DNA of 64,000 bases from Aeromicrobium sp. Root344 (lineage in GTDB: Bacteria > Actinomycetota > Actinomycetes > Propionibacteriales > Nocardioidaceae): assembly GCF_001425755.1 (NCBI RefSeq), contig NZ_LMDH01000001.1, forward strand, positions 1,830,335 through 1,894,334. Reading direction: 5' to 3'. This document shows, in pieces, positions 48,232 to 64,000 of this stretch; positions within the stretch are counted from its first letter, which is position 1, and each line of letters begins with the position of its first letter. The notes beneath the pieces were generated by a model that searched no databases, was not told the origin of the DNA, and was given only the letters and a program-made list of their open reading frames with translations. Both the position numbers and the translations under genes were made by a program.

Positions 48232-50178
48232 CTACGCGTCGTAGTCGAGCCGGAGCTCCTCGCTGACCGGGTGCGCCTGGCAGGTGAGGATGTATCCGGT
48301 GTCGATCTCCTCGTCGCAGAGGACGTGGTTCTGGTCCATGACGGCCTGACCGAGAAGAACCTTGGCCCGGCACGTGCCGCAGGCCCCTCCGGCGCAGGAG
48401 TAGGGCGGGTCGATGCCGTGCTGCATCGCGGCGTCAAGGATGGTGTCGCCCGTCGATCGCAGCGGGAACGTCGTCTCCGTCCCGTCGACGGTGACGCTCA
48501 CCTGGCTCTCCACGTCCAGCCCCACCGAGCTGGTGGCCGGCTCGGTGTGGAAGACCTCGGTCAGGACCTGGGCCCCGCGCGGCTTCAGCGACGCTTCCAT
48601 GACGTCGACCAGGTCCTGCGGCCCGCACAGGAACCACGCATCGACTCGACCGGTCACGACCTCGTCGACCAGCTCGGGGGTGACCCGTCCGCGCAGCCTC
48701 GCGCCATCCTCTCGGGACAGCACGTGGTGCACGGTCAGCCGGTCGCCCATGGCGCCGAGCTCGTCCCTGAACATCGCGGACTCCGAGGTCTGGTTCCCGT
48801 ACACGAGGGTGAACGTGCTGTCCGGCTCGGTCTCGAGGGTCGTGGCGATGATCGACATCAGCGGGGTGATGCCCGAACCCGCCGCGACGGCTGCGTACGT
48901 GCGAGAGGCGCTGGGATCCAGTGCGGTGTGGAAGCGGCCGGTCGGGGTCATCACGTCGAGGATGTCGCCGGCCTCGAGGTCGTGGTGCACGTACGTCGAG
49001 AAGACACCGCCGGGCACGAGCTTGACGGCGACCCGCAAGGTTCCTGCGGACACGGGCGACACGATCGAATAGCTGCGACGCACGTCCTGTCCCTCGATCA
49101 TGGCGCGCAGGGTGATGTGCTGGCCCTGGACGTAGCGGTAGTCGTGGGCCAGGTCGTCGGGCACCTCGAACGTGATGAGGCGGCTGTCGGCAGTCAGGAG
49201 CTCCGTCGACCGGACGCGCAGCGGGTGGAAGACCGGCCGTCCCGCGGGAACCCGGTCAGGCGTCTGGCCGATGTCGTCGGTCAGCCGTCGCCAGGTGCGG
49301 TACTCGGCTGTCGTCAGGGAGCGGCCGAAGACGGTCGAGATGGCGGCATTGCGGTCGAGGTACGCCTGCTCGTTGCGGCGCCACGCACGGACGTAGCGGT
49401 AGAACGGCACGCTCGGATGCAGGTGGTGCACCAGGTGATAGTTCTGGTAGACGAACAGCGGCGTCGCCCACCACTCGCCCCCGACGCGGACCCGGGTCGC
49501 GCGGTACTTGTCCTGCCTCTGGGTGAACGGCAGTCCGTGGTGCGGCAGGTAGTCGAACCACCACGCGAGTATGCCCATGCCGATCCGCTGCGGGATCAGG
49601 AACGCGACGAGGAGCTCGGCACCATGTCCGGCCACGATCAGGGCGGCGAAGGCGGCGAGGACGCCGACCGCGGTCGCCACGGTGCCGACGACCTCACCGC
49701 GCGGGCGTTGCGAGATCCTGCGGACGTAGAAGACGAAGTACCACGCCTCGATGGTCATCCAGCGGAACGGGAGCTGCCACCACGGCCCCTCGCTCGTCCA
49801 GGCATCCGGGTCGACGGACTTGGGCTCGTTGGTGTTGCGGTGGTGCTCGATGTGGATGAACTTGAGCAGCCGGTACGAGGCGTACGGCGCGACGAAGGGC
49901 ACCGAGAGGTAGCCGAGTGCATTGTTGAAGCGGGTGTCGGTGCTCGTCGCGTGGTGCGTGGACTCGTGGAGCACGCTGAACATCAAGAACGTCACGGCCG
50001 CACCCATCGGGCTCGTGACCCACGGTGACCAGTCCGCCGCCAGCGCCCCGTACATCTCGAGCGCGAACAGCCCGAGGGTCGCCACGTAGAGCGCCACGGT
50101 CGGCCAGGCGACGGGGGGGACGCGCTCTCCGGGGTCGGGCAGTCCGAGGACGGGTTGCTGCTGGATGCTCGTCGTCAT
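48232..50178 (-). CDS. Fatty acid desaturase / ferredoxin reductase fusion (self-sufficient membrane oxygenase)
   Basis: 648 aa. Residues 1-320: membrane di-iron desaturase/hydroxylase with His boxes HESTHH (71-76), IHIEHHRNTN (about 108-116) and YHLVHHLHP (about 285-295). Residues 330-550: FAD/NAD(P)-binding reductase (RSYSIVSP for FAD, GSGITPLMSII for nucleotide, FLCGPQDLVDVME). Residues 560-648: plant-type [2Fe-2S] ferredoxin with CAGGACGTC and ILTCQAHP. NAD(P)H, FAD, Fe-S and di-iron centres are thus on one polypeptide. ATG 50178 begins the protein right before the desaturase helix. It is divergent from an epoxide-hydrolase-like gene. Substrate could be an alkyl chain or an aromatic; not readable. 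Confidence 0.92.
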   Translation of the reverse strand: MTTSIQQQPVLGLPDPGERVPPVAWPTVALYVATLGLFALEMYGALAADWSPWVTSPMGAAVTFLMFSVLHESTHHATSTDTRFNNALGYLSVPFVAPYASYRLLKFIHIEHHRNTNEPKSVDPDAWTSEGPWWQLPFRWMTIEAWYFVFYVRRISQRPRGEVVGTVATAVGVLAAFAALIVAGHGAELLVAFLIPQRIGMGILAWWFDYLPHHGLPFTQRQDKYRATRVRVGGEWWATPLFVYQNYHLVHHLHPSVPFYRYVRAWRRNEQAYLDRNAAISTVFGRSLTTAEYRTWRRLTDDIGQTPDRVPAGRPVFHPLRVRSTELLTADSRLITFEVPDDLAHDYRYVQGQHITLRAMIEGQDVRRSYSIVSPVSAGTLRVAVKLVPGGVFSTYVHHDLEAGDILDVMTPTGRFHTALDPSASRTYAAVAAGSGITPLMSIIATTLETEPDSTFTLVYGNQTSESAMFRDELGAMGDRLTVHHVLSREDGARLRGRVTPELVDEVVTGRVDAWFLCGPQDLVDVMEASLKPRGAQVLTEVFHTEPATSSVGLDVESQVSVTVDGTETTFPLRSTGDTILDAAMQHGIDPPYSCAGGACGTCRAKVLLGQAVMDQNHVLCDEEIDTGYILTCQAHPVSEELRLDYDA

Positions 50179-50402
50179 CGGACGCTCGCTCTCACAGGTA
50201 TGTAATCTCGTTATGCTTGACATTCGCACCGTATATGTAAAGTCGGTGGATCGGCAAGAGGGCGTGACGATGGGACCGGTGTGTCCGGGCCGGCCATCCA
50301 GGTCGGCCCGGGCCTGGCTTGGCTGCTGGTGCACGTCCGCGACGCCACGGGGTACGCCGACACCCAACGCTTCAATCGGACTCAACGGAGGAGACGTCAC
50401 CC
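50179..50402. other. Divergent intergenic region, AT-richer than its surroundings
   Basis: 224 bp between the desaturase-fusion and hydrolase genes. It contains TTGACA (50217-50222, plus strand) with TAAAGT 15 nt on, and the heptamer TATGTAA twice (50199-50205 and 50234-50240). These are candidate promoter and regulator sites for the two genes; I cannot assign them to one direction. The 3' half (50270-50380) shows no clear element beyond GGAGGAG before the ATG at 50403. Confidence 0.45.
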
Positions 50403-51329
50403 ATGGGGCTCAGTGACGCGCGTACGACGACGGGATCGGCATACCTGGCGACCGGTGTGCGGATGCACTACCACGACTGCGGCGAGGGTGAGGACGCTCT
50501 CGTGCTGCTCCACGGCTACCCCCAGACGTCGTGGCAGTGGCGCCACGTGCTCGGCCCTCTCGCGGCGGCCGGCTACCGCGTCATCGCGCCGGACTATCGC
50601 GGCGCGGGCAGCTCGTCCCGTCCGCGAAGAGATCCCGGCATGCCGGCGGAGCTCCGCGGTGACGGCCCGCTCCCGCGGGGTGGCTACACCAAGTGGGAGA
50701 TGGCCGAGGACGTCCACCTGCTGCTCCACGACCACCTGGGCCTCACCCGGCCGGCATTCGTCCTCGGGCACGACATCGGCTCGATGGTGGCGACGGCGTA
50801 CGCCTTCCGCTACCGCGACCAGGTCCGAGCGCTGGGCTACGGAGAGGCCACCCAGCCCGGAACGACGGTGTTCGAGCGCATGAAGAGCTCGCCCGTCGAG
50901 TGGCACTTCACGTTCCACAACGTGCTCGACCTGCCGGAGATGCTGGTGGCCGGGAGGGAACGGCTCTACCTGCAGTACTTCTTCGATCGTCACGCCGCCA
51001 AGCCCACGGCCATCGACACGGACGCCTACGCAGCCGCGTACGAGCAGGCCGGAGCCATGCGCGCGGGGTTCGACCTCTACCGCGCCTTCGCGGCCGACGC
51101 CGACGACATCCGCACGGCACTGCGCGAGGGCGGGAAGCTGTCGATCCCCTGCCTCGGGATGTACGGGCAGGCCAGCCTGGCGCACGCGAAGCAGACCGAG
51201 GAGATCGGGCGGGAGCTGGCCGACGACGTCACGGTCGACGGCATCCCCGACGCCGGGCACTGGATCGCCGAGGAGAATCCCGCAGCGATGGTCGAGAGCC
51301 TGCTGCGCTTCGACGGTCGTACCCCGTGA
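50403..51329 (+). CDS. Alpha/beta hydrolase, epoxide hydrolase / dehalogenase type
   Basis: 308 aa. Oxyanion HGYP (37-40), nucleophile Asp124 in GHDIGSMVA (Asp instead of Ser marks epoxide hydrolases and haloalkane/fluoroacetate dehalogenases), a lid domain with two Tyr-rich stretches (WHFTFHNVLD, RLYLQYFFDRH), catalytic His in DAGHWIAEE. GGAGGAG lies 10 nt before the ATG. Divergent from a self-sufficient oxygenase fusion, which suggests a pathway in which an alkene or arene is oxidised to an epoxide and then hydrolysed. That link is inference. Confidence 0.9.
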   Translation: MGLSDARTTTGSAYLATGVRMHYHDCGEGEDALVLLHGYPQTSWQWRHVLGPLAAAGYRVIAPDYRGAGSSSRPRRDPGMPAELRGDGPLPRGGYTKWEMAEDVHLLLHDHLGLTRPAFVLGHDIGSMVATAYAFRYRDQVRALGYGEATQPGTTVFERMKSSPVEWHFTFHNVLDLPEMLVAGRERLYLQYFFDRHAAKPTAIDTDAYAAAYEQAGAMRAGFDLYRAFAADADDIRTALREGGKLSIPCLGMYGQASLAHAKQTEEIGRELADDVTVDGIPDAGHWIAEENPAAMVESLLRFDGRTP

Positions 51330-51391
51330 GACCCACCGACGCCCACGTTTCGTGTCGTCTCACTGTGCCCGGCCCTGCGCAGGGGGTCACC

Positions 51392-51397
51392 TAGAGT
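51392..51397 (+). promoter_or_regulatory. -10 box for the PP-loop gene
   Basis: TAGAGT, 6 nt, ATG at 51404; leaderless spacing. Confidence 0.55.
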
Positions 51398-51403
51398 CGC
51401 CTC

Positions 51404-52621
51404 ATGTCTGCGCACTCGCTCGACGACTACCTCGCCCTCGACTTCGTCCCGGAGCCGGAACGCGCCAGCCAGTACGTCAGGCATCTCTTCGGGCGCGCGA
51501 CCGACGGCGGTGCGGCCGACCCGGTCGACCTGCTGTGCCGGATCGTGGAGGAGGAGATCGGCAAGCGCGGTGTGGACGAGGTGGTCCTGCCCCTGACCGC
51601 CGGCTACGACTCGCGAGGCCTGCTTGGTGCCCTGCTCTCGGTGCTGCCGGCGAAGTCGATCCATTGCGTCACGTTCGGCAGCAAGGACTTCCACGACGTG
51701 ACCGGTGCCGCCGCGGTCTGCTCGCGCCTGGGCCTGGAGCATCGACGCCTCGATCCCAACCGGATGCGTTGGGACCTGGACCGATTCACCGACATCGCCC
51801 GCGCCCGCTGGGAGAAGCACCGATCGCTGGCTCCCGTCGACGGCATCGCGGTGTACGCCGCGCTGGCCGACGCTGCCGAGGGCCGAGTCGTGCTCTCGGG
51901 CTACCTGGGCGACGCCGTGAGCGGAGCGCACCTTCCCAAGACGGACGAGGCGAGGACCGGGAGCGGCGTCACGGCGCAGTTCCTCCGCTGGAACGACCCG
52001 AAGATCGCGACCGCCCAAGGGGTCGAACGACGCACGGCGCTGTTCGAGAAGTTCCTCGCCGACCACGCCGACCTCCTCGGCCAGTCGCGGTCACTCACCC
52101 CGTTCGACCTGCTGGATTTCGGGTTTCGCCAGAACTTCCGCATCAAGTCCGTCGCGGTCGACGCGTTCGAGGACTGCATCGCTCCCTACGAGGACACTCG
52201 GTGGGTCGCGCACTGGATGGCGCGCAACCTCCCCGACCGTTTGGGGGCGTCGAGCTACCGGTCGATCTACCCCGCTGCGTTCCTCGAGGTGTTTGCCGAC
52301 GCGCCGGCGAGCCGATCCTTGGTGCAGCGGGCTGCCGGCCGCGTGGTGGCGAAGATGCGTCCCGCCCCACCAGTCGTGCCCTGGGTCATCCAGGCGCGCG
52401 GCGACGCCAGACGCAATGCCAGCATCGCGGCTGTGTTCGAGGAGACGACGCGCGCGTTCGACCAACGACGTGTCCGGCCAGAGGTCTCGGCCACGTCGGC
52501 GTTCGAGCGGCTCACGGGGGACGCGCCGACTGGCAAGGACTTCATGACGACGCGCTGGGCCGCCACCGCGGAGATGTACGTACGCGCAGGCATCCTCGGG
52601 AACGGCACATCATCACCGTGA
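51404..52621 (+). CDS. Asparagine-synthetase-like PP-loop protein without glutaminase domain
   Basis: 405 aa. LPLTAGYDSRGLLGALL (about residues 62-78) is the SGGxDS-type ATP-pyrophosphatase loop, with Thr-Ala-Gly-Tyr in place of Ser-Gly-Gly-x. HCVTFGSKDFHDVTGAAAVCSRLGLEHRRLD and VVLSGYLGDAVSGAHLP match the AsnB C-terminal synthetase domain (the second is the AMP/Mg loop). No N-terminal Ntn glutaminase with Cys2, so it must use another amine donor or have another role. It is the last chromosomal gene before the att site. Related stand-alone domains occur in polysaccharide and peptide gene clusters. Confidence 0.85.
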   Translation: MSAHSLDDYLALDFVPEPERASQYVRHLFGRATDGGAADPVDLLCRIVEEEIGKRGVDEVVLPLTAGYDSRGLLGALLSVLPAKSIHCVTFGSKDFHDVTGAAAVCSRLGLEHRRLDPNRMRWDLDRFTDIARARWEKHRSLAPVDGIAVYAALADAAEGRVVLSGYLGDAVSGAHLPKTDEARTGSGVTAQFLRWNDPKIATAQGVERRTALFEKFLADHADLLGQSRSLTPFDLLDFGFRQNFRIKSVAVDAFEDCIAPYEDTRWVAHWMARNLPDRLGASSYRSIYPAAFLEVFADAPASRSLVQRAAGRVVAKMRPAPPVVPWVIQARGDARRNASIAAVFEETTRAFDQRRVRPEVSATSAFERLTGDAPTGKDFMTTRWAATAEMYVRAGILGNGTSSP

Positions 52622-52667
52622 CACCAGCTCGTCTTCCGAGAGTTGTGGCGGCGTCGTTCGAGAGCTG

Positions 52668-52711
52668 TGGCACCCCCAACGGGATTCGAACCCGTGCTAC
52701 CGCCGTGAAAG
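52668..52711 (-). repeat. 3' fragment of tRNA-Glu(TTC): probable att site of an integrated element
   Basis: On the minus strand the sequence reads CTTTCAC (anticodon loop, TTC), GGCGG, TAGCA, then T-arm ACGGG-TTCGAAT-CCCGT, acceptor TGGGGGT, G, CCA. It is an exact 3' part of a tRNA-Glu. The 5' half is absent: after the anticodon loop the sequence becomes AT-rich and unrelated. Such a remnant is left at the distal end when an element integrates into a tRNA gene and restores the intact gene at the other end. The intact copy should therefore lie to the right of the window. Confidence 0.85.
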
Positions 52712-52901
52712 TGGAAATAAAGCCTGATGGAACAGTGTCGATCAATGCGGTTTTTGATTGATATTGCAGGGAAATCGTCGTCTAGATTTATTGGACATTT
52801 GTGACAGTTATTGGCTGTTTTGGAGTCTCGTGTTGCCTCAGTGTTGCCAAAGACCGGCCTCCGTCTTTACAGATAACCACCGGAAGAGGCAGTATTCTGT
52901 T

Positions 52902-53588
52902 ATGGCGATTCATGGCGACTTCCTGACAACCCAAGAGGTGTCCGACCTCTTGGGGGTTGAGGGGCGGCAGGTTCGCGGCCTCGCCGAGACGGGGTCGATC
53001 ACCCGCATCGCCCGTGGCATCTTCGACCGCACATCGGTGGAGCGCTACCGTGCCGAGCGCGGTTCAGGCCGGACCCGGACCTGGGCAGCGCGTACCGCCT
53101 GGGGGGCTATCGCATTGCTTTCGGGCGCAGCCCCGCTAGACCTCGGTGATGTCCAGACGTACCGGCTCCGCGCTGCTCTGCGCGAGATCACCGACCCGAC
53201 CGATCTGGCCATCCAGTTGCGCGACCGCGCGACGGTCACTACCTGGGCCGGCCACCGCTCCGTCCTTGAGCGCGTCCGTGAGGAGCTCGTCGTCCCCGGC
53301 CGTCAGCGGCTCGGGCTCGTCGAGGACGACGCCATCGTCGACGGCTACATCCATGCTGACCGGATTGCAGAGGTCGTGCGCCGCTACCGGCTCAGCGAGG
53401 ACACCACGGGTTCGATCACCCTGCGCTACACGAATATGGACATCGAGTTCATCCAATACCTTGCAGCCTTCAACAGGACGCTCGCCGCCGTCGACGCCGC
53501 CACCTCGCTCGACCCGCGTGAACGCGGCGTGGGAGAGAAGGCCCTGGTCGGCCGGTTGGAGTTGTTCCGCGAAAATGCCAGACGATAA
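52902..53588 (+). CDS. Putative AbiEi-like antitoxin with N-terminal helix-turn-helix
   Basis: 228 aa. Residues 8-50 (FLTTQEVSDLLGVEGRQVRGLAETGSITRIARGIFDRTSVERY) form an excisionase/MerR-type winged HTH. The rest (WAARTAWGAIALLSGAAPL...AALREITDPTDLAIQLRDRATV...VPGRQRLGLVEDD) is a helical domain of unknown fold. It overlaps the next gene, a nucleotidyltransferase, by 14 nt. A HTH protein paired with a downstream AbiEii-like nucleotidyltransferase is the layout of type IV toxin-antitoxin and abortive-infection modules, in which the HTH protein neutralises and autoregulates. A possible promoter is TTGCCA / TACAGA at 18 bp (about 52844-52873). Confidence 0.65.
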   Translation: MAIHGDFLTTQEVSDLLGVEGRQVRGLAETGSITRIARGIFDRTSVERYRAERGSGRTRTWAARTAWGAIALLSGAAPLDLGDVQTYRLRAALREITDPTDLAIQLRDRATVTTWAGHRSVLERVREELVVPGRQRLGLVEDDAIVDGYIHADRIAEVVRRYRLSEDTTGSITLRYTNMDIEFIQYLAAFNRTLAAVDAATSLDPRERGVGEKALVGRLELFRENARR

Positions 53589-54390
53589 GCAGTCGGGCAT
53601 CGAGCGCCCGATCATCGACGTCGGCGCTCCTACTGGTGGCTGGCCCGACCCGTGGCCGAACGTCGCCGAGATCGCCGAAGTTCTGCCGACCGACAAGTGG
53701 ACCCTTGTCGGCGGCCTGATGACCCAGTTGCACTCCATCCACCACGGCCTTGGCGCCGTGCGACCAACCAACGACGTCGACATCGTGCTGCACGTCGAGA
53801 CCTCACGCGGCGTCGCCTCGGAGACCGCGGCCGCATTGCAGTCCCTTGGGTACGACCTGCGTCCGACGGTCGATCCGCGCGACAACACCGCGCACCGCTT
53901 CTTCCGCGGCACGAGCAGGATCGACATGGTCGCCAACCGTCCAGACGACGAGTCGGAGGAAGTAGTCGACGTCTTGATCTCCGACCACCACGCTCCGAAG
54001 GTCACCGAGCGGCTCGCCGGACGCGACATGATTCGTATAGAGGGCGGCACGCAAGCACTGCGACGCACCATCAACGCGCGCATGGAGATCGAGCCCGGAA
54101 TCGTCACCACAGTCTCGGTCCCTGGCGTATTCGGCGCTCTCCTCTTGAAGGCTGCCGCGTACAAGACCGACTCGCGCGACCCCGACCGCCACCTGCGCGA
54201 CGCTGTGGCATTGCTCGCCTGTGTCGACGACCCGTTCGCCGAGCGCGAGGGCTTCACGGGCTCTGACCGATCCCGACTCCAAACCCTGCGCACTCGACTC
54301 ACACCCGACGACATCGCCTGGACCGTGCTGACCGGCCAGCCCCGCATCGACGCCGAGTCGGCACTGGAGATTCTCGTCAGCGAGGACTGA
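53575..54390 (+). CDS. AbiEii/AbiGii-like nucleotidyltransferase (putative toxin)
   Basis: 271 aa. Pol-beta-type nucleotidyltransferase core: WTLVGGLMTQLHSIHHGLGAVRPTNDVDIVLHV carries the GG...R-x-T-x-D-(V/I)-D pattern with the metal-binding Asp pair; VDVLISDHHAP supplies the third acidic strand. The C-terminal half is helical with LLKAAAYKTDSRDPDRHLRDAVALLACV, the K...R...D helix common to AbiEii proteins. ATG 53575 lies inside the preceding gene. In this family the toxin transfers nucleotides, e.g. to tRNA. Phage-defence or element maintenance is inferred. Confidence 0.72.
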   Translation: MPDDKQSGIERPIIDVGAPTGGWPDPWPNVAEIAEVLPTDKWTLVGGLMTQLHSIHHGLGAVRPTNDVDIVLHVETSRGVASETAAALQSLGYDLRPTVDPRDNTAHRFFRGTSRIDMVANRPDDESEEVVDVLISDHHAPKVTERLAGRDMIRIEGGTQALRRTINARMEIEPGIVTTVSVPGVFGALLLKAAAYKTDSRDPDRHLRDAVALLACVDDPFAEREGFTGSDRSRLQTLRTRLTPDDIAWTVLTGQPRIDAESALEILVSED

Positions 54391-54755
54391 CCCCCCGGAC
54401 CCGCGCGGAGCCGGACATCGGAGGAGTCTTGCCGCGCTATGAGCGGATTCTGGCCGGGCCTCGGATCCTGGTCCTGCGGCATCCGGATCACGGCGGACAG
54501 TGGATCATCCCGCCGCGAAGGCGCTAGATACTTCCTGGGCTGCGGTTGCCCTCCGTTAGACGAATCAGGCCGCGGCCACAGCCCTTGCACCGGGTCCCGG
54601 AACTCGCCACGACGATAGCGATGCTGAAGAACGTTCGGAGCGATAGCGTGCATTCATGACTTCGACTTATCAGATGGCCAAGCTAGGCCGGCTCGCGTAG
54701 GCGGGCCGAACCTAGCTTGTTCCAGCCTTCGGGCTACATCTGATTGGAGAAGTCT
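54391..54755. other. 365-bp gap with an inverted repeat
   Basis: No convincing gene. The main feature is CAAGCTAGG (54679-54687) with CCTAGCTTG (54711-54719), 9-bp perfect arms whose inner parts are also partly complementary (CCGG / GGCCG). It ends 37 bp before the GTG at 54756 and could be a terminator of the TA operon, an attenuator or an operator. A 59-codon open frame at 54439 has no RBS or composition support. Confidence 0.45.
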
Positions 54756-55106
54756 GTGTTCATTAGTGATTGCGTTGTGCTCAACGGGCGTGACCTGGTT
54801 GTGGAGACCTATGAGGTGCGTGGTCTTCGTCCGTTGCTGGCAGTGGTTGTGGACGAACTGTTTTGCTCCCACCACGGCAGGTCCTGCGCTGAAGGATTCT
54901 GTCTGCTCGAGCCGCCTTCGTGGGCCTGGTTCGTCGGGATCGGACCGCACGCGAATCTCGGTCTTGCGTTCTGGAAAGCGGGACAGTGGGCGCTCGGATA
55001 CCCGTTGCCTCTGACTGACCGGCGCACAATTAGCGAGGACGAGGCCGTGAATGTGTGGGGCTGGAACTCGGCATTGCTGGCCGAGTCGATGTCGCTGCTC
55101 GACTAG
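54756..55106 (+). CDS. Hypothetical cytoplasmic protein
   Basis: 116 aa from GTG 54756, chosen because GGAGAAG ends 4-6 nt upstream; a TTG at 54744 is possible. Compact, Trp-rich protein with two Cys motifs (FCSHHGRSCAEGFC) that resemble part of a metal site. The end reads NVWGWNSALLAESMSLLD. Not recognised. Located between the TA pair and the relaxase on the element. Confidence 0.6.
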   Translation: MFISDCVVLNGRDLVVETYEVRGLRPLLAVVVDELFCSHHGRSCAEGFCLLEPPSWAWFVGIGPHANLGLAFWKAGQWALGYPLPLTDRRTISEDEAVNVWGWNSALLAESMSLLD

Positions 55107-55264
55107 AACGGACGGCGCCGAGGGTTGCGGAACGTTCGCGTCCAGCGCCACCCTCGGCGCCCAGTAGAAGGGCTCACCTACGGTCTTGGTCCGCCACGCC
55201 TATTCGCGCGGCACCGCGCACGGCGGGCCCACAAGTCTTCAGGACGAGTAGACCTCGTCTACAG

Positions 55265-55420
55265 TCAACTTCGGCCCTGCCGGTCTTCTGCCGGAACCCA
55301 GCCGTAGCCACACTCCGGACAGATGTGTGCACCCTCATTGCCCGATTCGTCAAGGTCGACAACGGCTAGGACTCTTGCCTTGCAGTGAGGGCAGTCCACT
55401 CGCTGGACAAGGGTCTTCAT
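55265..55420 (-). CDS. 51-aa zinc-ribbon protein
   Basis: MKTLVQRVDCPHCKARVLAV followed by VDLDESGNEGAHICPECGYG and WVPAEDRQGRS. Two CxxC knuckles (CPHC, CPEC) 23 residues apart form a zinc ribbon. TACCGT lies 7 nt before the ATG (leaderless spacing), supporting the start. Below the length usually annotated. Function unknown; small zinc ribbons on mobile elements often bind nucleic acid or protein partners. Confidence 0.6.
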   Translation of the reverse strand: MKTLVQRVDCPHCKARVLAVVDLDESGNEGAHICPECGYGWVPAEDRQGRS

Positions 55421-55591
55421 GAGTCTGACGGTACTCAGCAAAGCCCGATCGTGGCAGGCGTGTTCCCGGTACGCGAGATGGGCGGCCGAGCGTCCTTGGG
55501 GTGCGCTTGGCTAGCCAACCGGTCGCAGGTAATCGCGTGCCCGAGCGCTGTCAGAACGACCTGCGTCCGAAGCCCGTCATCCCGTAGCGAC

Positions 55592-58500
55592 TCATATCCC
55601 GACGCCAGGGCCACCTGGGGGCAGATCCGTTGATCGCCGTGGCGAGCTCGTGCGTTGTCGTTGGACGCGGTCGAAGACATGGCTCTCGCCTGCGAGGAGT
55701 CGGGTGATCCGAGAGTCCAGGGCGGCTGTCGGGTGATCATCGGGTAGCGATCCTTGGCCTGCCGCAGCCTCCAAGAGGCGGTGTACGTCGTGTCCCTGCT
55801 GGGCCAGTAAGGCGAGCCGTCCGGCAAGGACAGGCGTGTGATTGTCGCTGTGCCCGACGAGCTCGCTGATTGGCCGTAGCCACGCTGCGCCTTGCTTGTC
55901 GAGGTGATGAGTGAGGCTTTGATCGAGTCGCTGTTGATGTTCGCGGGCCGCGAAGTCCACCTGTGGTAAGCCAGTCGGCCGTAGGTCGCTTTCGGGTATG
56001 CCGTGGGCGGCGCGCCACACTTCGATGTCGCTCGTGAGGCCAGCGGGGAGCGCGGTGTTCGGCGGCAGCCACTGGTGCGAGTGTTGATCGGTTGACCTCC
56101 GGACGTTGCGAGCGAAGGTGCTGACCTGTTCTGCGCGTTCGACCAAGTAGGTGCCCCAGGTGGAGTCTTCCGTGAGCTTGGCGGGGATGGCGGGGAGCCA
56201 TGGCAACGGGCCGCCGTCCGTCGAAGCCAGGGTATGCAGGCGCCATCCGAGCACGAGTGCTGCGTCGTCAGCGTCGTCGAGCGGGCGGTACGCGAAGGCA
56301 GTCTCGAGTAGATCGCAAGCGCTCAGTCCGTTTGTTTCGATCATGAGGAGTTGCGCCGACAGAGACGACCATCCAGGCGTGCCGGTGAGCCCGGTCAGCA
56401 GTTCTTCGGCCTGGTCCGCGATCTTGCGAATGTGATCTGGACCGAGCACGTCTTCGGCGGCGGCGACGAGTGCATCGGCATACCGGGTCGCGGCTTCGTT
56501 GAGTTGCGCTGCGGGCGAGGTCGCTTCGCGGGCGGTGGTGGTTGCGGAAACAGCAGTTCCGGTGCGGGCCAGGATGGATTCGAGGATTTCCGTTGCGGTC
56601 GCCGGCTCGCGAGTATCTGGGTGGAGCAACTGGTGAGGGTCGCCGTCTCCGCCGACCGCCAGGTGTACGTGATTGGCGTGACGTCCTCTGGTCATCATCG
56701 AGTAGAGCGTCTCGCGGGATTCCGTGCCGGTGATGACTCCGTGCATTGTGTCGGCGGTGAGGCCTTGGGCGCTGTGGACGGTCGAGGCGTATCCGAGCTC
56801 GACGTGCTCGGCGACGTATGGCGCGGGCAGGGTGATGTGCAGACCGGACCGCGCGTGGCGGGCGGTGAGTGATCCGCCCTGGACGTCGGTGACGGTCCAG
56901 CGGTCGCCGTTCTTCACCCAGTCTGTGGGGCTGAGCGCGAGCCGTCGGTCGTTGCGTCGAGTGCGCATCGTGTCGCCGATCGAGGCGCGACTGCCATCAG
57001 CGAGGTCGACCTCGGCGTCAGGCGTCGTCTTGTCGAGGCGCGTGGCTCGGGCTCGTAGATTCAATTCAGTCACGAGGTCGTGTGTGGGCGCGACCATCAG
57101 TGAATCCATTCCGGCTGCGCGGTCCTTCGACCACGCAGCGAAGACCGCGTCTGTGGTCGTGGTGGTGCTGCCGATGTGGACGCGGTCCTGGTCGAAGTAG
57201 TACCCGAGGGCCGACGGGTTGCCGTGACGCAAGGCAATTGACGCGGCGGCTTCGGCGGCGTCCGTGAATCGCATGAGTTGGTCCAGGCGTGCGGCGCCGT
57301 GGATGGCGACGATGTCGCGCAGTACTCCGCCGGCGCCGATGGCTGCGAGCTGTTGGTCGTCGCCGATGAGCCGCACGGACGCCCCGTTGTCGATGGCGTG
57401 GTTGATGACGCGGGCCAGGGTCAGTGTGTCGGCCATGCCCGCCTCGTCGATGATGACGAGCGTCTCCGGCCCGATCGACAGTAATGGGGATGGGCTTCCA
57501 ACGTCGAGCTCATGCACCAGCTTGGCGAGGGTGTCCGACGTGATGCCGGTCTCCGCCCCAAGCGCGGCCGCGGCTGCCGCAGATGGCGCCAGGCCAACGA
57601 CTTGTCCTCCGGCGTCGTCCCATGCGCTGGCCAGAATCTGCATTGCGGTGGTCTTGCCTGACCCGGCTGCTGCGATGCCGACCTGCAGACGCCGTCCGCT
57701 GAGGGCCATTTCTCGGACCAGTTGGGCTTGCCCTTGGTTGAGGGCGATGCCGTTCGCGGCGCTCTCCAGCAGAGCTACCTCGACGGTCTCGACTGGGACG
57801 AGGCGTCCGTCTTCGCGGTCTGCGGCGATCATGATCTGTTGCTCGGCCTCGAGGATCCTGGGGCTGGTGAACAGGTCGTGACCGGTGTGCCGGTAGACGC
57901 TTGAGCCATCCGCGCGACGGAGCTTCTCAGGGTCGCTGATGGGGTCGAGGTCGGGCGTCAGGTTGACGGATAGATGCTCGAGGACGTGGTTGACGACCCA
58001 GCCGACCGCCGCATCCAGGCGGCCGGAATCGATCTCGGTGTCGCGCACTTGGCGCTGAGCTTCGGCGCGCGCATGGGTGGTCTTCCACGTGGCGCGGTGG
58101 GACTCCAGCTCGGCGACTACCCGTTGCGCGGTGTCCGCTACCCATGTTGCTGACACGCCATCGCACACGGTGGCGATGGGGTGCAGCGCCTCAGCCACCA
58201 TGTCGTCGGCAGCCTGCTGCGATCCGAGTTTGTTGACCGCCTCGTCGTGCCAGACGGAACGTTGTTCGGCCAACGAGCGTGGCTCGTGCTTGGCGTCCCT
58301 CGTCTCCAGGTTCGCCTGCTGAGCCAGACCGATCGTCTCCAAAGGAGTTGGCGGGCGCCCGTGCGTCTGCTGGAAATCGGCTGCCAGCTCGCCTTGGCGC
58401 ACATTGATGTCGCGGCGGCGCTTCGACCATTCCTGGTTGAGCGATGGGTTGATGCCCACGATTTCGCGTACCAGGCGCTTCCCTCGTTGGGCATCGGACC

Positions 58501-59410
58501 GTGGCGCGAAGCGGACACCGAGTGTCGCGGCCAGGTGGTGCTCGAGTGCGGTGTTGTAGGTCTCCGACGCCGCCACTGCCGCCTCGTAGAGCACCCGCCC
58601 ATAGATGGCGAGCCACTTGCCGCCCGTCGTCTGGACCTTGTTCGCCACCGCGACGTGGGTGTGAAGGTCGGGGTCACCAGCACGCGAGTCGCGGTGCGTG
58701 AATCCCGTCGCGATCAGCCCACGCGTCTCGACCTGCCGAGCCCCGTTCAAGCCTTCGCGGGTGAACAGTGCCTCGCGTTCGATGAATCTCAACGCGTCGG
58801 ACACCGCGGCATCGTGGGCCTTCTCGATCACCGCTGACACTTCTGGCGGAGCGATTGCCCACAGTGTGGAGACCGACTTGACCGGCGAGAACGTCAGGTC
58901 AAAACCGGCGACGGCCGCGCGTGGTGGACGTGAGTATCGCTTCAACGCCGCGTCGAGCTCACGGGGGTTCGTAGGTTCCCGGCCGTGCTCCTCGACGAAG
59001 AATTCCTTGGCCACCTCCGTACGCGCGCGTGCACGAACGTCGGCCGGCGAAGCAGGTGCGGAGTGCTCGTTCTCGGAACTCAGGAAGCGGGCGCGAAGTC
59101 CCACCTCAGCCCGGAAGCCCTCGCTGAGTTGATTGTCATAAAGCCGGTATGGCCGACCCAGCCGATCGCCGGAGACCGGATCGAGTCCATGTCCGAACAG
59201 GTGAAGCATCTGCTCCGCCGTGACGACGTCACCGGTCTCGATACCGTCAATCCCGGCTAGCCCCGAGCCCATCCAGACGCCGGGCGCCTCACCTTTCGCC
59301 GAGTAGTAGTCCGCCAGTGTCGCGTGCCCCTTCTCGGTCGAGTCCATCGCAGCGACCTGCCGGGTCAAGTACTCATACCCGGAACCGGCCGAGAGCTTGT
59401 GCAACGTCAT
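55592..59410 (-). CDS. MobF family conjugative relaxase-helicase (TraA-like)
   Basis: 1272 aa from ATG 59410, with GGGGAA 8 nt upstream. Relaxase domain: catalytic Tyr pair near the N-terminus (SGYEYLTRQV, Tyr12/Tyr14) and the metal-binding His triad (HRDSRAGDPDLHTHV, about residues 238-251). TrwC/TraI-type helicase: Walker A AAAGSGKTT (about 579-586), Walker B LVIIDEAGM, motif GDDQQLAAIGAGG, and the C-terminal STVHSAQGLTADTMH. It nicks oriT and unwinds DNA for transfer. An upstream in-frame start would add 62 residues with no RBS. C-terminal 350 residues are uncharacterised. No oriT identified. Confidence 0.9.
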   Translation of the reverse strand: MTLHKLSAGSGYEYLTRQVAAMDSTEKGHATLADYYSAKGEAPGVWMGSGLAGIDGIETGDVVTAEQMLHLFGHGLDPVSGDRLGRPYRLYDNQLSEGFRAEVGLRARFLSSENEHSAPASPADVRARARTEVAKEFFVEEHGREPTNPRELDAALKRYSRPPRAAVAGFDLTFSPVKSVSTLWAIAPPEVSAVIEKAHDAAVSDALRFIEREALFTREGLNGARQVETRGLIATGFTHRDSRAGDPDLHTHVAVANKVQTTGGKWLAIYGRVLYEAAVAASETYNTALEHHLAATLGVRFAPRSDAQRGKRLVREIVGINPSLNQEWSKRRRDINVRQGELAADFQQTHGRPPTPLETIGLAQQANLETRDAKHEPRSLAEQRSVWHDEAVNKLGSQQAADDMVAEALHPIATVCDGVSATWVADTAQRVVAELESHRATWKTTHARAEAQRQVRDTEIDSGRLDAAVGWVVNHVLEHLSVNLTPDLDPISDPEKLRRADGSSVYRHTGHDLFTSPRILEAEQQIMIAADREDGRLVPVETVEVALLESAANGIALNQGQAQLVREMALSGRRLQVGIAAAGSGKTTAMQILASAWDDAGGQVVGLAPSAAAAAALGAETGITSDTLAKLVHELDVGSPSPLLSIGPETLVIIDEAGMADTLTLARVINHAIDNGASVRLIGDDQQLAAIGAGGVLRDIVAIHGAARLDQLMRFTDAAEAAASIALRHGNPSALGYYFDQDRVHIGSTTTTTDAVFAAWSKDRAAGMDSLMVAPTHDLVTELNLRARATRLDKTTPDAEVDLADGSRASIGDTMRTRRNDRRLALSPTDWVKNGDRWTVTDVQGGSLTARHARSGLHITLPAPYVAEHVELGYASTVHSAQGLTADTMHGVITGTESRETLYSMMTRGRHANHVHLAVGGDGDPHQLLHPDTREPATATEILESILARTGTAVSATTTAREATSPAAQLNEAATRYADALVAAAEDVLGPDHIRKIADQAEELLTGLTGTPGWSSLSAQLLMIETNGLSACDLLETAFAYRPLDDADDAALVLGWRLHTLASTDGGPLPWLPAIPAKLTEDSTWGTYLVERAEQVSTFARNVRRSTDQHSHQWLPPNTALPAGLTSDIEVWRAAHGIPESDLRPTGLPQVDFAAREHQQRLDQSLTHHLDKQGAAWLRPISELVGHSDNHTPVLAGRLALLAQQGHDVHRLLEAAAGQGSLPDDHPTAALDSRITRLLAGESHVFDRVQRQRTSSPRRSTDLPPGGPGVGI

Positions 59411-59555
59411 GGTCACGTTCCCCAAGGCCGAGAAATCAGCACGAGTGGCCACGCGAGGCACCCTCAATGAAAGAGGTGTGTGGAAGTTGATGGGCGTCGT
59501 TTCCGTGCCGGGCGTTTCAATTCCGTCGTATGTTGAGCGATCAGTACCGTAATTA

Positions 59556-59567
59556 CAACGTTCGTTG
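59556..59567. repeat. Inverted repeat CAACG-TT-CGTTG in the relaxase / nitroreductase gap
   Basis: 5-bp perfect arms around TT in the 189-bp divergent intergenic region, just at the -35 (TTGCAT) of the nitroreductase promoter. It may be an operator or an oriT-related feature. Confidence 0.4.
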
Positions 59568-59593
59568 CATATCCGTTTGATTGGCGCTACGGT
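59565..59593 (+). promoter_or_regulatory. Leaderless promoter of the nitroreductase gene
   Basis: TTGCAT (59565-59570), 17 nt, TACGGT (59588-59593), 6 nt, GTG at 59600. Confidence 0.6.
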
Positions 59594-59599
59594 CACCGG

Positions 59600-60268
59600 G
59601 TGAACGAGAACCTTGACGAAGGTGCATTCAACCTCGATGAGGCCGATCGCCTGTTGAGCACGACCCGTGCTGTGCGCCGCCGACTTGATCTGGAGCGTCC
59701 GGTGTCACGCGAGGTGGTCGAGAACTGCATCGAAGTCGCTATGCAGGCGCCGATCGGAGGCAACGTCGAGGTCCGTCGTTGGGTGGTCGTCACCGACCAG
59801 GGGCTCAAGGATCAGATCGCTGCGCACTATCGGACGGCCGCCGATCCTTACCTCGACGAGACCTTCGAGGATGCATACAAGCGGGGCGACCAGCAAAAGC
59901 TCCGTGTTGTGGCCAGCGCGAAGTTCCTTGCCGCCAACTTCGAGCGGGTGCCAGTCTTCGTCATCCCTTGCATTGAGCCTGGCATCGACTTCTCGGACAG
60001 CATCTCCGCCGTCGCAGATTTTGCCTCTGTGCTGCCCGGTGTGTGGAACTTCCAGCTCGCGCTGCGTGCGCGCGGGCTTGGCACGACGCTCACCACTCTC
60101 CACCTCTACGAAGAAAGAGCGGTGGGCGACCTTCTCGGGATCCCGGCCTCGGTGAGTCAGATCTGCTTGCTGCCTGTGGCGTACACGGTGGGGCGCAACT
60201 TCAAGCCGGCGAAGCGGGTCGACGCCCGCAAGGTCACGTATTGGAACTCCTGGCCCACAACGAAATGA
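59600..60268 (+). CDS. Nitroreductase family protein
   Basis: 222 aa from GTG, supported by TACGGT 6 nt upstream. Nitroreductase fold: STTRAVRRRLDLERPVSREVVENCIEVAMQAPIGGN (FMN phosphate and Arg site), RRWVVVTD, ALRARGLGTTLTTL, LLGIPASV and a C-terminal VGRNFKPAKRVDARKVTYWN. FMN-dependent NAD(P)H reductase of nitro or quinone compounds; the substrate is not readable. Placed before an oligopeptide-type ABC importer. Confidence 0.9.
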   Translation: MNENLDEGAFNLDEADRLLSTTRAVRRRLDLERPVSREVVENCIEVAMQAPIGGNVEVRRWVVVTDQGLKDQIAAHYRTAADPYLDETFEDAYKRGDQQKLRVVASAKFLAANFERVPVFVIPCIEPGIDFSDSISAVADFASVLPGVWNFQLALRARGLGTTLTTLHLYEERAVGDLLGIPASVSQICLLPVAYTVGRNFKPAKRVDARKVTYWNSWPTTK

Positions 60269-60285
60269 GGGGGCGGGCAAAACCA

Positions 60286-60314
60286 TTGTCCTCGTAGGAA
60301 CTGTGTTGTACATT
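60286..60314 (+). promoter_or_regulatory. Promoter of the oligopeptide-type ABC operon
   Basis: TTGTCC (60286-60291), 17 nt, TACATT (60309-60314), about 50 nt before the ATG 60365, which has its own GGAGG. Confidence 0.55.
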
Positions 60315-60364
60315 CACCGTTACATATCAACGTCTATCGACTATCCGGGCTGGAGGTCTTTCGC

Positions 60365-61357
60365 ATGAGTGCGTTGCCAGAGGTCGGCCTACCGGTCGTC
60401 GGCCCGCGGGCCTGGAAATTCGGTTTCATCGCGCGAGTCGCCTCGACTTTCGTCGGTGCTGTGGGGACGATCGTCGCCGCCTCGTTCGTCATCTTCACTG
60501 CCCTGAGCTTCGCTCCCGGGGACCCGGTGGCGCAGATCTTGGGGCCCAAGGCCACCGACGAGGCGCGCGCAGCGAAGGCTGCAGAGCTCGGTCTCGATGA
60601 CCCGTTGATCGAGCGGTACTGGCACTGGTTGACATCGCTGGTTCACGGAGACCTCGGCACGTCGTTCACCTATCGCGAAGACGTCACCAAGCTTGTCGAG
60701 CCACGACTCGAGACCACGTTCTTGCTCGTGCTGATGGCAGCACTGACGATGCTGGTGGTCGGGATCGCGCTTGGATCGCTGGGCGGAATCAGCGAGCGGT
60801 GGCGTCCCTATGTCAGCGCCGCGGCTGGGTTGGGAGTGTCGGTCCCCACGTTCGTGGCGTCAAGTGTGCTCATCAGCGTTTTCGCAGTTCAGCTGGGCTG
60901 GTTCCCCACGTTCGGAGCGGGCGAAGGCCTCGCCGACAGAATCAGGCACCTCGTGCTTCCCGCCATCGCGCTGTCCATCAGCTACGGCGCCTACGTCACA
61001 CAGCTCTCGGCGACGGCGGTGCGCGACGAGGCGTGTAAGGAGCACGTGATGACCAGTCGCGGACGGGGAATCCCAGGCAATCGCATCGTCTTTCGGCACA
61101 TTTTGCGCAACGCCGCCCTTCCGGTGATGACGGCATCCGGTCTGGCGATCGCGGGTCTCGTGGCCGGTGCGGTTGTCGTCGAGCAGGCGTTCGCCATCGA
61201 CGGCATCGGGTCACTGCTGATCGCCAGCATCTCGAGCAAGGACTACCCGGTTGTGCTCGCAGTGTCGCTCATCATCGTCATCGTCTTCGTCGTCGTCATG
61301 ACGATCATCGACGTCGCTCAGGTGCTTTTGGATCCACGTCAGAGAGAAGGCCGCTGA
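60365..61357 (+). CDS. Oligopeptide/nickel-type ABC permease 1 (DppB-like)
   Basis: 330 aa. DppB signature: SFVIFTALSFAPGDPVAQILGP (N-terminal helix), HWLTSLVHGDLGTSFTYREDV, EAA loop HVMTSRGRGIPGNRIVFRHILRNAALPVMTASG. GGAGG 8 nt before the ATG. The stop overlaps the next gene (TGATG). Imports peptides, nickel or opines; the binding protein that would tell is missing in view. Confidence 0.93.
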   Translation: MSALPEVGLPVVGPRAWKFGFIARVASTFVGAVGTIVAASFVIFTALSFAPGDPVAQILGPKATDEARAAKAAELGLDDPLIERYWHWLTSLVHGDLGTSFTYREDVTKLVEPRLETTFLLVLMAALTMLVVGIALGSLGGISERWRPYVSAAAGLGVSVPTFVASSVLISVFAVQLGWFPTFGAGEGLADRIRHLVLPAIALSISYGAYVTQLSATAVRDEACKEHVMTSRGRGIPGNRIVFRHILRNAALPVMTASGLAIAGLVAGAVVVEQAFAIDGIGSLLIASISSKDYPVVLAVSLIIVIVFVVVMTIIDVAQVLLDPRQREGR

Positions 61358-62211
61358 TGGCCACGATCGCGGCAGCCGGTGCCACTGTGGTACCAGCGGA
61401 ACGGTGTCCCAAGGACAAGCTGCTCATCGTCTCCGCCCTGATCTGTGCACTGGTGGCACTGGTCGCGGCCTTCGGTGCCTTCATCGCGCCGTACTCGCCG
61501 AACCAGACAGACGTGCTGAGTGCCAGCCTCGGTCCGAGTGGCCAGCACTGGTTTGGCACCGATGGCATCGGGCGCGACATCTTCTCGCGGGCGGTCAGCG
61601 GTGCTCGGATCAGCTTTGCAGGCGCCGGCATCATCGTCGTGGGCAGCGCATTCATCGGAACAGCCCTGGCCATCTTCTCTGCCTGGAACGGTGGGTGGGT
61701 GGATCGCGCGCTGAACCGCGTGCTCAACGTGATGTTCGCGGTCCCCGGGATCCTTGTCGCAGTGCTGGCATCGGCCGTGTTTGGTGCTGGCTTCTGGGCG
61801 CCGGTCATCGCTCTGACCATCGTGTACGTACCGTTCTACGCTCGCGTGGTTCGTTCGGCAGCGGTCCAGGAGTGCGCCATGCCCTACATTGAGGGATTGC
61901 AGCTGGCTGGGCTGTCGTCGTGGCGCATCTGCACCCGCCACATCCTGCGGAACGTCTCGCCGATGGTCCTCGCCCAGGCGACGATCGCCTTCGGCAACGC
62001 GTTGGTTGACTTCGCGGCGGTCTCGTTCATCGGGCTCGGTGTCCAGCCGCCCACCTCGGAGTGGGGGCTCATGGTTGCTGACGGACGTGCCGAGATCCTC
62101 AACGGGGCGCCGCAGCAGAGCCTCGCGGCGGGCATGTGCATCGTCGTCACCGTGGTGGCCTTCAACGTGCTCGGTGACCGGCTGTCGGCTCGCACTGGAG
62201 GTCAACGATGA
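61357..62211 (+). CDS. Oligopeptide/nickel-type ABC permease 2 (DppC-like)
   Basis: 284 aa. DppC features: AFIAPYSPNQTDVLSASLGPSGQHWFGTDGIGRDIFSRAVSGARISF, EAA loop YIEGLQLAGLSSWRICTRHILRNVSPMVL, FIGLGVQPPTSEWGLMVADGR. Pairs with the preceding permease. Confidence 0.93.
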   Translation: MATIAAAGATVVPAERCPKDKLLIVSALICALVALVAAFGAFIAPYSPNQTDVLSASLGPSGQHWFGTDGIGRDIFSRAVSGARISFAGAGIIVVGSAFIGTALAIFSAWNGGWVDRALNRVLNVMFAVPGILVAVLASAVFGAGFWAPVIALTIVYVPFYARVVRSAAVQECAMPYIEGLQLAGLSSWRICTRHILRNVSPMVLAQATIAFGNALVDFAAVSFIGLGVQPPTSEWGLMVADGRAEILNGAPQQSLAAGMCIVVTVVAFNVLGDRLSARTGGQR

Positions 62212-63233
62212 TGACGGCGGCAGGCGTGAGCGCTGACGCACGCGGACCCGCGCTGCTCGACATCCGAGACCTGGGTATCAGGCTGACGGATCGCGTGCCA
62301 CATCGCGTCCTGGTGCAGGACGTCACGCTGTCCATGCACCCCGGCGAGTCGGTCGGACTGGTGGGGGAGTCAGGTTCGGGCAAGTCCATGACTGTCAAGG
62401 CCGCGATGCGTCTCCTCCCGAGCAACGCCGAGGTGGAGGGCAGCATCGAGTTCGACGGCCGACTGGTCGACCGGTTCAGCCGGTCGGAGCTGGCCGCCTA
62501 CCGCAGCTCCGATGTCGGGTTGATCCACCAGGATCCACGCGCGCACACCAACCCGATGCGTACGGTCGGCCAGTTCCTGGTGGAGAGTGTGGTTGCCACT
62601 CGCAAGATGTCCAAGCGCGAGGCGACCGACCGCGCCATCAGCCTGTTGGCCGAGATGGGTATCGGCGACGCGCGGCGCCGGATGGATCAGTACCCTCACC
62701 AGCTGTCCGGAGGCTTGCTGCAGCGCGTCATGATCGCCGCCACGCTCATGAATGAGCCCCGACTCATCTTCGCCGACGAGCCGACGACGGCGCTCGACGT
62801 GACTGTGCAGTCAGAGGTCATGGCGATCTTGATGGAGCAGATCGAGGAGCGCGACCTCGGCATGCTCTTGGTCACCCATGACCTGGACCTCGCCGCCGCG
62901 GTGAGCGACACCCTGGTCGTCATGTACGCAGGAACCGTGGTCGAGTCGGGGGGCGCCAAGGATCTTTACGCCGACCCGCGGCACCCCTACACCGCAGCCC
63001 TTTTGGCATCCCGCCCGAGCACCACACAGGTCAAGCGCCTGGTGTCGATCCAGGGTCGACCGGCGGCGGCCTTCGAGGTGGGCCAGGGTTGCGTCTTCGC
63101 GGCGCGGTGTCCGTTCGCCACGGAGCTGTGCCGCACGGACCGCCCTGAGATGCGGCTGGTCGACGGTAGTCACGTCGCGTGCCACCGTGCTGAGGCGATC
63201 GCTGACGATCTGAAGGTGGCCTTGCATGACTGA
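62208..63233 (+). CDS. ABC transporter ATP-binding protein (DppD-like)
   Basis: 341 aa. Walker A GESGSGKSM, signature LSGGLLQRV, Walker B IFADEPTTALDV, C-terminal oligopeptide-specific region with CVFAARCPFATELCRTDRPEM, the Cys-rich motif (CX6C-type) conserved in DppD/OppD and able to hold an Fe-S cluster. ATGA overlap with the permease and 8-nt overlap with the next ATPase. Confidence 0.93.
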   Translation: MMTAAGVSADARGPALLDIRDLGIRLTDRVPHRVLVQDVTLSMHPGESVGLVGESGSGKSMTVKAAMRLLPSNAEVEGSIEFDGRLVDRFSRSELAAYRSSDVGLIHQDPRAHTNPMRTVGQFLVESVVATRKMSKREATDRAISLLAEMGIGDARRRMDQYPHQLSGGLLQRVMIAATLMNEPRLIFADEPTTALDVTVQSEVMAILMEQIEERDLGMLLVTHDLDLAAAVSDTLVVMYAGTVVESGGAKDLYADPRHPYTAALLASRPSTTQVKRLVSIQGRPAAAFEVGQGCVFAARCPFATELCRTDRPEMRLVDGSHVACHRAEAIADDLKVALHD

Positions 63234-64000
63234 CCCAGCAGGTGGACAGGCGACACGTGTCGTGACGACCGCACCGCAATCGTCGCCGAACGCAGGATCG
63301 GCCATCCTCACGGTTGAGCACCTGACGAAGGTCTTCGGGCGCAGCGGCCGTGAGCACAAGGCGGTCGATGACCTGAGCTTCCACCTGGATGAAGGTGAGT
63401 CGCTTGCGATCGTGGGCGAGTCCGGATCAGGGAAGACGACGACCGCGCGGATCGTGGCCGGCCTCGAGACAGCGACGTCGGGGAGAGTAGTCATGGACGG
63501 CCTCGACGTGACACGTGGACCTCGCACCGGTCGCCGGAAAGATGTGGCACGAATCGTCCAGATGGTCTTTCAGGACCCGTTCGGGTCGCTGGATCCCCGA
63601 CAGAAGATCGGCAAGGGCCTCGAGGAGCTGCTGACGATCCACTTCGGTCTGTCCGGTTCCGGTCTGTCGGATCGGGTCTCGGAACTCCTGGACCAGGTCG
63701 GCCTCGATGATCGCCATGCGGCGTACCTGCCGCGGACGCTCTCTGGGGGTCAGCGGCAGAGGGTTGCCATCGCTCGTGCTCTTGCCCTGGAGCCCAAGAT
63801 CCTGATCCTCGACGAAGCCGTCTCGGCTTTGGACGTCAGCGTGCAGGCCCAGGTGTTGAACCTGCTGGTCGACATCCGGCAGAACACGGGGATCTCCTAC
63901 CTGTTCGTCTCGCACGACCTCGGCGTCGTTCGCCAGGTCACCGACAACTGCCTCGTGCTGAACTGCGGCAAGCTGGTCGAGTCCGGCCCTACGGCCCAGG
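63226..64000 (+). CDS. ABC transporter ATP-binding protein (DppF-like), 3' end outside the window
   Basis: 258 codons, no stop before the right edge. Walker A GESGSGKTT, Q-loop MVFQDPFGSLDPRQKIG, signature LSGGQRQRVAIARA, Walker B ILILDEAVSALDVSVQAQVLNLL, H-loop SHDLGVV. With DppD it forms the heterodimeric ATPase of an oligopeptide-family importer. The missing part should be the C-terminal 60-80 residues. Confidence 0.92.
   Translation, partial: MTDPAGGQATRVVTTAPQSSPNAGSAILTVEHLTKVFGRSGREHKAVDDLSFHLDEGESLAIVGESGSGKTTTARIVAGLETATSGRVVMDGLDVTRGPRTGRRKDVARIVQMVFQDPFGSLDPRQKIGKGLEELLTIHFGLSGSGLSDRVSELLDQVGLDDRHAAYLPRTLSGGQRQRVAIARALALEPKILILDEAVSALDVSVQAQVLNLLVDIRQNTGISYLFVSHDLGVVRQVTDNCLVLNCGKLVESGPTAQ

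Follow-up and report, generated by a model that had tools for sequence, protein, structure and literature searches.

Phage Mx8 targets a tRNA. In a review of Myxococcus phages (PMC6070905), the Mx8 attP is placed inside int, so that integration gives the gene a new 3' end, and this new end is described as modifying the enzyme rather than inactivating it. The Islander study (PMC4383910) names Mx8 and SSV as integrases extending across attP, an exception that it allows among tRNA islands otherwise mapped by a tDNA, a displaced 3' tDNA fragment, a tyrosine integrase between them and a core on the anticodon side. Related arrangements are described for the SSV-type suicidal integrases of archaea, whose att site lies within the integrase gene (PMC8371274), for the integration-dependent immunity of mycobacteriophage BPs, in which integration alters the 3' end of the gene holding attP (PMC4557955), and for the state-dependent promoter switching of ICEKp1 int, by which the integration state feeds back on the integrase (PMC13023037).

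Here we describe an island of Aeromicrobium sp. Root344 whose left boundary lies in the window, by which we mean the whole 64,000-bp stretch analysed (G000:C1:1830335-1894334, in a genome of one contig with 3,874,254 bases). We are highly confident that a 53-kb island targeting tRNA-Glu and bearing putative arm sites has its attL core at window segment 52668-52711, and that integration swaps the C-terminus of its integrase. The island has every feature listed above for the Islander set and no essential difference from it, the integrase ORF crossing attP in the present case. With Mx8 it shares an ORF lying over attP and acquiring a new 3' end upon integration; unlike the phage, it is a cargo island with an actinobacterial integrase whose short tail has 16 residues out and 17 in, and the antisense reading of the tRNA uses a different frame in each of two related groups. 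Integration of the SSV type splits the gene into N- and C-parts, whereas here the integrated ORF retains the full catalytic domain on one side. In BPs the altered gene is a repressor and here it is the integrase; in ICEKp1 the feedback goes through transcription at the promoter side and here it would concern the protein C-terminus. We regard the cargo-island tail exchange in two frames as a variant of the Mx8 layout, and the island itself as one of a familiar type. A literature search, with most subscription papers outside its coverage, found no report of such a tail exchange in Aeromicrobium or Nocardioides. An ordinary island boundary thereby provides an example, open to testing, of a protein whose sequence would reveal whether its own gene is integrated.

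The segment is an exact 3' piece of tRNA-Glu(TTC) that reaches from the anticodon loop as far as the encoded CCA (minus strand CTTTCACGG...GGGTGCCA). The initial annotation had described it as lacking the 5' half, and in agreement with this ARAGORN found no complete tRNA there; in the whole window, the program reported only two tRNAs, Phe and Asp, at 29.2-29.5 kb. The same annotation took the remnant for an integration junction and predicted an intact minus-strand tRNA-Glu to the right, sharing the 44 nucleotides; as a check it suggested looking for a tyrosine integrase next to it. When the whole genome was searched allowing up to three mismatches, the 44-nt core was found in two places, both on the minus strand and without mismatches, at 1883002-1883045 (the window copy) and 1936154-1936197. 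The second copy lies 53,152 bp to the right and is the 3' half of the intact tRNA-Glu(ttc), the identity extends over exactly 44 nt and is lost on either side, and a chance origin of two such copies is negligible. A tyrosine integrase of 446 codons (Phage_integrase 5.2e-27) sits beside the second copy, at the right end of the island, and ends at the tRNA. The AT-richer DNA announced downstream of the remnant is also there, in a modest form, as GC falls from ~0.69 to ~0.65 at the left core copy and is near 0.69 again to the right of the tRNA-Glu. The features are collected in Table 1.

Table 1. Positions of the island ends and of the genes and motifs discussed (window positions unless marked as genome).
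Feature	Position	Strand	Remarks
attL core at the left end of the island (3'-terminal 44 nt of tRNA-Glu(TTC))	52668..52711	-	exact second copy inside the intact tRNA-Glu
Displaced int 3' end, 16 codons (VEIKPDGTVSINAVFD) + TGA	52711..52761	+	in frame with int only in the circle
Island part within the window	52712..64000	.	continues to genome 1936153
Left arm-type motif (putative) TGTTGCCTCAGTGTTGCC	52831..52848	+	one of only two genome occurrences of TGTTGCC-N4-TGTTGCC
Weakly AbiEi-like gene	52902..53588	+	Pfam AbiEi_4 24 bits, cut-off 25; PADLOC E ~0.006
Possible partner, overlaps the AbiEi-like gene	53575..54390	+	no family match
MobF/TrwC relaxase-helicase	55592..59452	-	TrwC 6.7e-86, AAA_30; MobF 227.8 bits, above cut-off 100
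Excisionase-like gene	genome 1934640-1934867		HTH_17 match
int	genome 1934910-1936250		Phage_integrase match
Right arms (putative)	genome 1936064-1936081	+	TGTTGCC-N4-TGTTGCC
attR/tRNA-Glu	genome 1936154-1936229	-	intact tRNA

Beyond the view of the initial annotation, the integrase gene runs across the attachment site. Its ORF crosses the right core in frame, antisense to the tRNA, and reaches its stop 53 nt past the core; therefore, integration should exchange the C-terminus of the encoded protein. In the integrated state the protein ends in ...FETGTPNGIRTRATAVK-GRRPRPLDDGGRKARSA, that is, AVK-GRRPRPLDDGGRKARSA, and when the island ends are joined in silico it would end in ...TAVK-VEIKPDGTVSINAVFD, the tail codons being found by translation at window positions 52711-52758, followed by TGA. 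We examined 60 loci of the family, from which 10 without a tRNA, 8 without the catalytic motif and 5 duplicates were left out. Among the 37 remaining integrases, 21 enter the tRNA and 16 stop before it; an ORF running into the tRNA is not universal among the tRNA-targeting integrases of the family. For the 17 integrases with the 3'-end motif described below, the distance from the catalytic motif to the arm takes six values (53, 68, 89, 92, 101 and 104 nt), the reading phase between both is kept in 16 (the exception is L140), and in none of the 17 does the ORF stop before the T-loop begins. A tblastn search with the integrated integrase matched 516 phage records and 8 of plasmids, none of them reaching 60% identity; the tail was found in none of the best 20 of the 516 phage matches nor in the 8 plasmid matches, whose alignments end at or before residue 388. 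IMG/VR yielded two loci in which both integrases stop early and have no motif; only L194 has a tRNA-Glu, and its integrase stop precedes this tRNA.

Each island end harbors one copy of the tandem TGTTGCC-N4-TGTTGCC. In its own genome the pattern occurs twice on the forward strand (1883165 and 1936064) and never on the reverse, with an expected count that we estimate at ~0.03 from its 14 fixed bases, and the reversed pattern used as a control was absent from this genome and from the 49 genus genomes. Across these 49 genomes the motif was found at 19 places in 11 genomes, 16 of which have the T-loop of an antisense tRNA at a constant spacing, namely -150 at left ends (-147 and -149 once each) and +103 at right ends (+102 once). 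The motif pairs bracket whole elements, for example, G021 C1 766438/795981 and G024 C7 1678562/1735272 at tRNA-Glu(ctc). The motif was also seen in 11 of 14 further or repeated genomes; G043/G378 and G062/G379, apparently the same assemblies as they show the same places, were counted once each. A second group has its left ends at -139 (5/5: L158, L168, L169, L170 and L171) and its right ends at +104. The motif places in G005, G028, G039, G381:C11 and G379:C207 were not counted as element ends, having no T-loop nearby. Repeated sites at a fixed distance, placed to the left and right of the core within attP, make up a lambda-like layout, and the tandems, one helical turn apart, are probably arm-type sites to which the integrase would bind. 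In addition, the pattern is a simple DNA tag found at both ends of related islands, including those with different cargo.

Other sequences were noticed near the arms. A second short conserved stretch, ~TTGGACATTTGTGGCA, lies at window ~52789-52810, past the tail stop and ahead of the left arms, and is seen in most of the left ends aligned; it is possibly another site for a recombination protein. In the tRNA-Glu(ctc) elements of L081, L083 and L088, a perfect G+C-rich hairpin followed by TCTTTTT is located between the arm and the core; it falls inside the int reading frame, directly ahead of the core, and resembles a terminator placed in coding sequence.

The joined form predicted from the island ends has a natural counterpart. 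In the MAG Aeromicrobium sp. LF-bin-295 (L106, G062/G379), the right and left arm pairs of contig L173 are separated by 253 bp (103+150); a single core lies between them, and one open integrase ORF runs through, ending in ...GIRTRATALRVEERPDGTVVTTIVFG; the stretch begins inside int, and the bin has an estimated contamination of 8%. Judged from its sequence, L173 is the attP predicted by joining the ends, and it may come from a circle, from a tandem copy or from an extrachromosomal form. In the second group, the arm-to-core distance is 104 instead of 103, which displaces the reading frame across the tRNA by one. Of the seven integrases of this kind among the 17, five end at a TAG that lies within the tRNA, e.g., ...YPRPDSNRRYRRERAAC; the ORF of L108 continues, and that of L140 is out of phase. 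The five left ends of this group would yield circular tails such as ...RERATGGSSDDVGNQ and ...RERATEGSPDDVGDQ; therefore, the tail swap appears to outlast the frame change, with a different tail.

We propose that the circular element would make an integrase carrying the long-kept tail VExxPDGTVxVTAVF, and that the circle would integrate by exchange of the core in the anticodon-loop half of tRNA-Glu, with putative arm sites on either side. Integration would restore the tRNA at the right, leave the 3' fragment at 52668-52711 and provide the integrase with an arbitrary tail whose codons lie antisense to the tRNA 5' half; excision, with the participation of the excisionase-like protein, would restore the original integrase gene. 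Both forms of the protein are presumably made, and their swap may tune integration versus excision. Candidate roles of the tail would be favouring integration, multimer contacts or stability. If the tail matters, the arrangement would be a compact, integrase-intrinsic directionality switch in actinobacteria, in a layout so far known to us from phage Mx8 (PMC6070905).

It is quite possible, even if we lean the other way, that the island is real and that the integrase residues following the catalytic domain are a run-on free of selection, the apparent conservation of the tail codons coming solely from a protein-binding constraint on the attP DNA near the core. In fact, the arm motifs lie within the reading frame, so that a constraint on the DNA is present there, and the integrases of the family that stop before their downstream tRNA indicate that the extension is dispensable in relatives. 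However, the open 16-codon tail VExxPDG[TS]xxxxx[VS]F is present with TGA at the same place in nine left ends (G000, G024 twice, G003, G021, G035, G013 and G062 twice), and the conservation drops at the stop codon, with 447/1728 pairwise differences in the tail and 804/1728 in the 48 nt after it. The three PDG codons, which look invariant, vary at third positions, and the phase is maintained over the six spacings described above, which also argues against a run-on. For the nine tails, which are not independent and some of which are closely alike, the in-frame pN/pS is 0.52, compared with 1.21 and 0.91 when the two other frames are read; for the 48 nt behind the stop it is 1.03. When the alignment columns were shuffled, 128/2000 shuffles attained the pN/pS of the tail and 214/5000 its codon-position-3 excess, and because of these values the coding signal of the tail appears modest and borderline, as a run-on would have it. 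Two other left ends depart from the pattern, that of G043 being frame-shifted and that of G032 an unrelated sequence.

A search of 294 family genomes with a profile of the tail gave matches in 12 at E<=0.01. Seven were strong (E<=3.5e-9; G000, G003, G013, G021, G024, G035 and G062), and the others were G043 at 5.1e-7 and four weak ones. For five of the seven strong genomes a close integrase was found as well, with E<=9.2e-219, 5.2e-217 or better than 1e-210; in G003 and G013, both fragmented assemblies, the tail matched and no integrase passed the threshold. Among 391 genomes of the order, five matches were obtained at E<=1e-4, four of which were already known and one weak. AlphaFold drew the tail of the joined-form C-terminus (A2) as two strands, at a mean pLDDT of 39.6, a confidence too low for this drawing to be informative.

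More tentatively, the integrase might sense its own state. The tail would be present only in the circle and integration would remove it, such that the reaction would be self-limiting and its direction biased without a repressor, in two frames. The tail codons would be shifted by integration tens of kilobases to the other end of the island, and the two related groups, with arm-to-core distances of 103 or 104 nt, would either have kept this trick or have made it again after the frame change.

A simple ORF caller gave 46 gene calls between the core copies. The gene next to int at the right end matches HTH_17 (35.3 bits, cut-off 27) and remains under the cut-off of the 'excise' domain model (20.6 bits, cut-off 28.8). 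The relaxase gene expected downstream of the remnant proved solid (Table 1). Of the toxin-antitoxin genes proposed in the same region, an AbiEi match is present at a sub-threshold score, and its partner found no match in Pfam, PADLOC or NCBIfam. The cargo between the ends comprises ABC-transporter genes, an amidase, peptidases, P450s, a Rieske oxygenase and a reductase, a glutamine-synthetase-like gene, a gene for a class-I amidotransferase and folate one-carbon genes, among which PurU exceeds its cut-off. Relatives of the ring-cleavage genes HpaD, HpaE and HpaG are also present, each scoring under its cut-off. From these matches the cargo looks catabolic, for amines or aromatics, the substrate being a guess. 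One block of it (L005 1-20000, genome 1914335-1934334) brings together the glutamine-synthetase-like, amidotransferase, Rieske/P450 oxygenase, one-carbon and Hpa-like ring-cleavage genes, and resembles a pathway that would act on a methylated aromatic amine, which is again a guess as to the substrate.

The element ends on one side with the intact tDNA and on the other with a correctly oriented fragment of it, and has a tyrosine integrase in between, which is the configuration of a tRNA-targeted genomic island. It carries a relaxase of the MobF/TrwC type, as integrative mobilizable elements do. The type IV secretion and coupling genes of an integrative conjugative element were not found among the island gene calls scanned with Pfam or NCBIfam (the 19-aa g059 lay outside the scan), nor did the same Pfam and NCBIfam scans reveal the phage structural genes of a prophage. 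Judged from its genes, the 53-kb island is perhaps a mobilizable one.

We compared the site in 20-kb stretches around tRNA-Glu(ttc), 13 stretches from 12 relatives. In eight relatives (G035, G025, G033, G008, G038, G034, G027 and G044), homologues of both flanks occur close together in one stretch with a single core copy, and the site is not occupied by the island; G012 matched on the right flank only. In those eight, 1.9 to 12.5 kb of other DNA separates the left-flank match from the tRNA, and therefore this is a variable spot and not a clean empty site. Neither an intact tRNA-Glu immediately to the left of the remnant nor relatives with the same gene order and no insertion, which would have spoken against a junction, were found, and the junction read by the initial annotation is supported by the second core copy, the integrase and the relatives. 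Its view of the DNA upstream as ordinary chromosomal genes held less well; window positions ~48450-52667 are not plain conserved chromosome, because they had no match in the stretches of the relatives. These ~4.2 kb to the left of the attL core contain desaturase/ferredoxin-reductase-like, hydrolase and asparagine-synthase-like genes and may be the leftover of an earlier insertion. The left neighbour gene g056 was discarded as an empty-site marker, having matched only G000 (two places) and G021 among 58 genomes; the right neighbour g103, present in 44 of 49 genus genomes, was used instead.

It seems unlikely that the island is decayed and immobile, its ends having been kept intact by descent after movement was lost. 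The scanned island genes are without a type IV secretion match, and fossils do occur at the same tRNA: G021 (taken as A. ginsengisoli) has two cores 1,958 bp apart and an int 3' remnant, by their sequence a fossil element, and G029 has a degenerate left core (6 mismatches) with an int remnant. However, the integrase and the cores of the island are intact and both arm pairs are perfect. Moreover, in G024 (taken as Aeromicrobium sp. 9AM), of the same genus, the same tRNA holds a 21,523-bp element between two core copies, which has only the excisionase-like gene and int in common with the 46 gene calls of the island, its int being 97% identical, so that a near relative has different cargo at the same site. 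Because G024, G021 and G029 carry elements or remnants there, one tRNA-Glu gene appears to have taken up the same integration module repeatedly.

That the 44-nt piece is a duplicated tRNA fragment without any link to mobility is in practice refuted by its orientation, its exactness over 44 nt, the integrase at the matching end, the GC step, the arm pairs and the single-copy sites of the relatives, even though partial tRNA copies do occur. One of them is seen in G024 (L189 ~17326-17436), where an extra partial tRNA-Glu core lies 67 nt to the left of the attL core, as if two successive insertions had taken place. Beside tRNA-Glu(ttc) in G025 (L183 13173-15691), ARAGORN reported about two dozen tRNA genes in a dense run, and at the same spot in G035 (L181 16289-17081) there is a short Arg-His-Arg run of tRNAs plus Cys; these may be a tRNA array in the same variable place.
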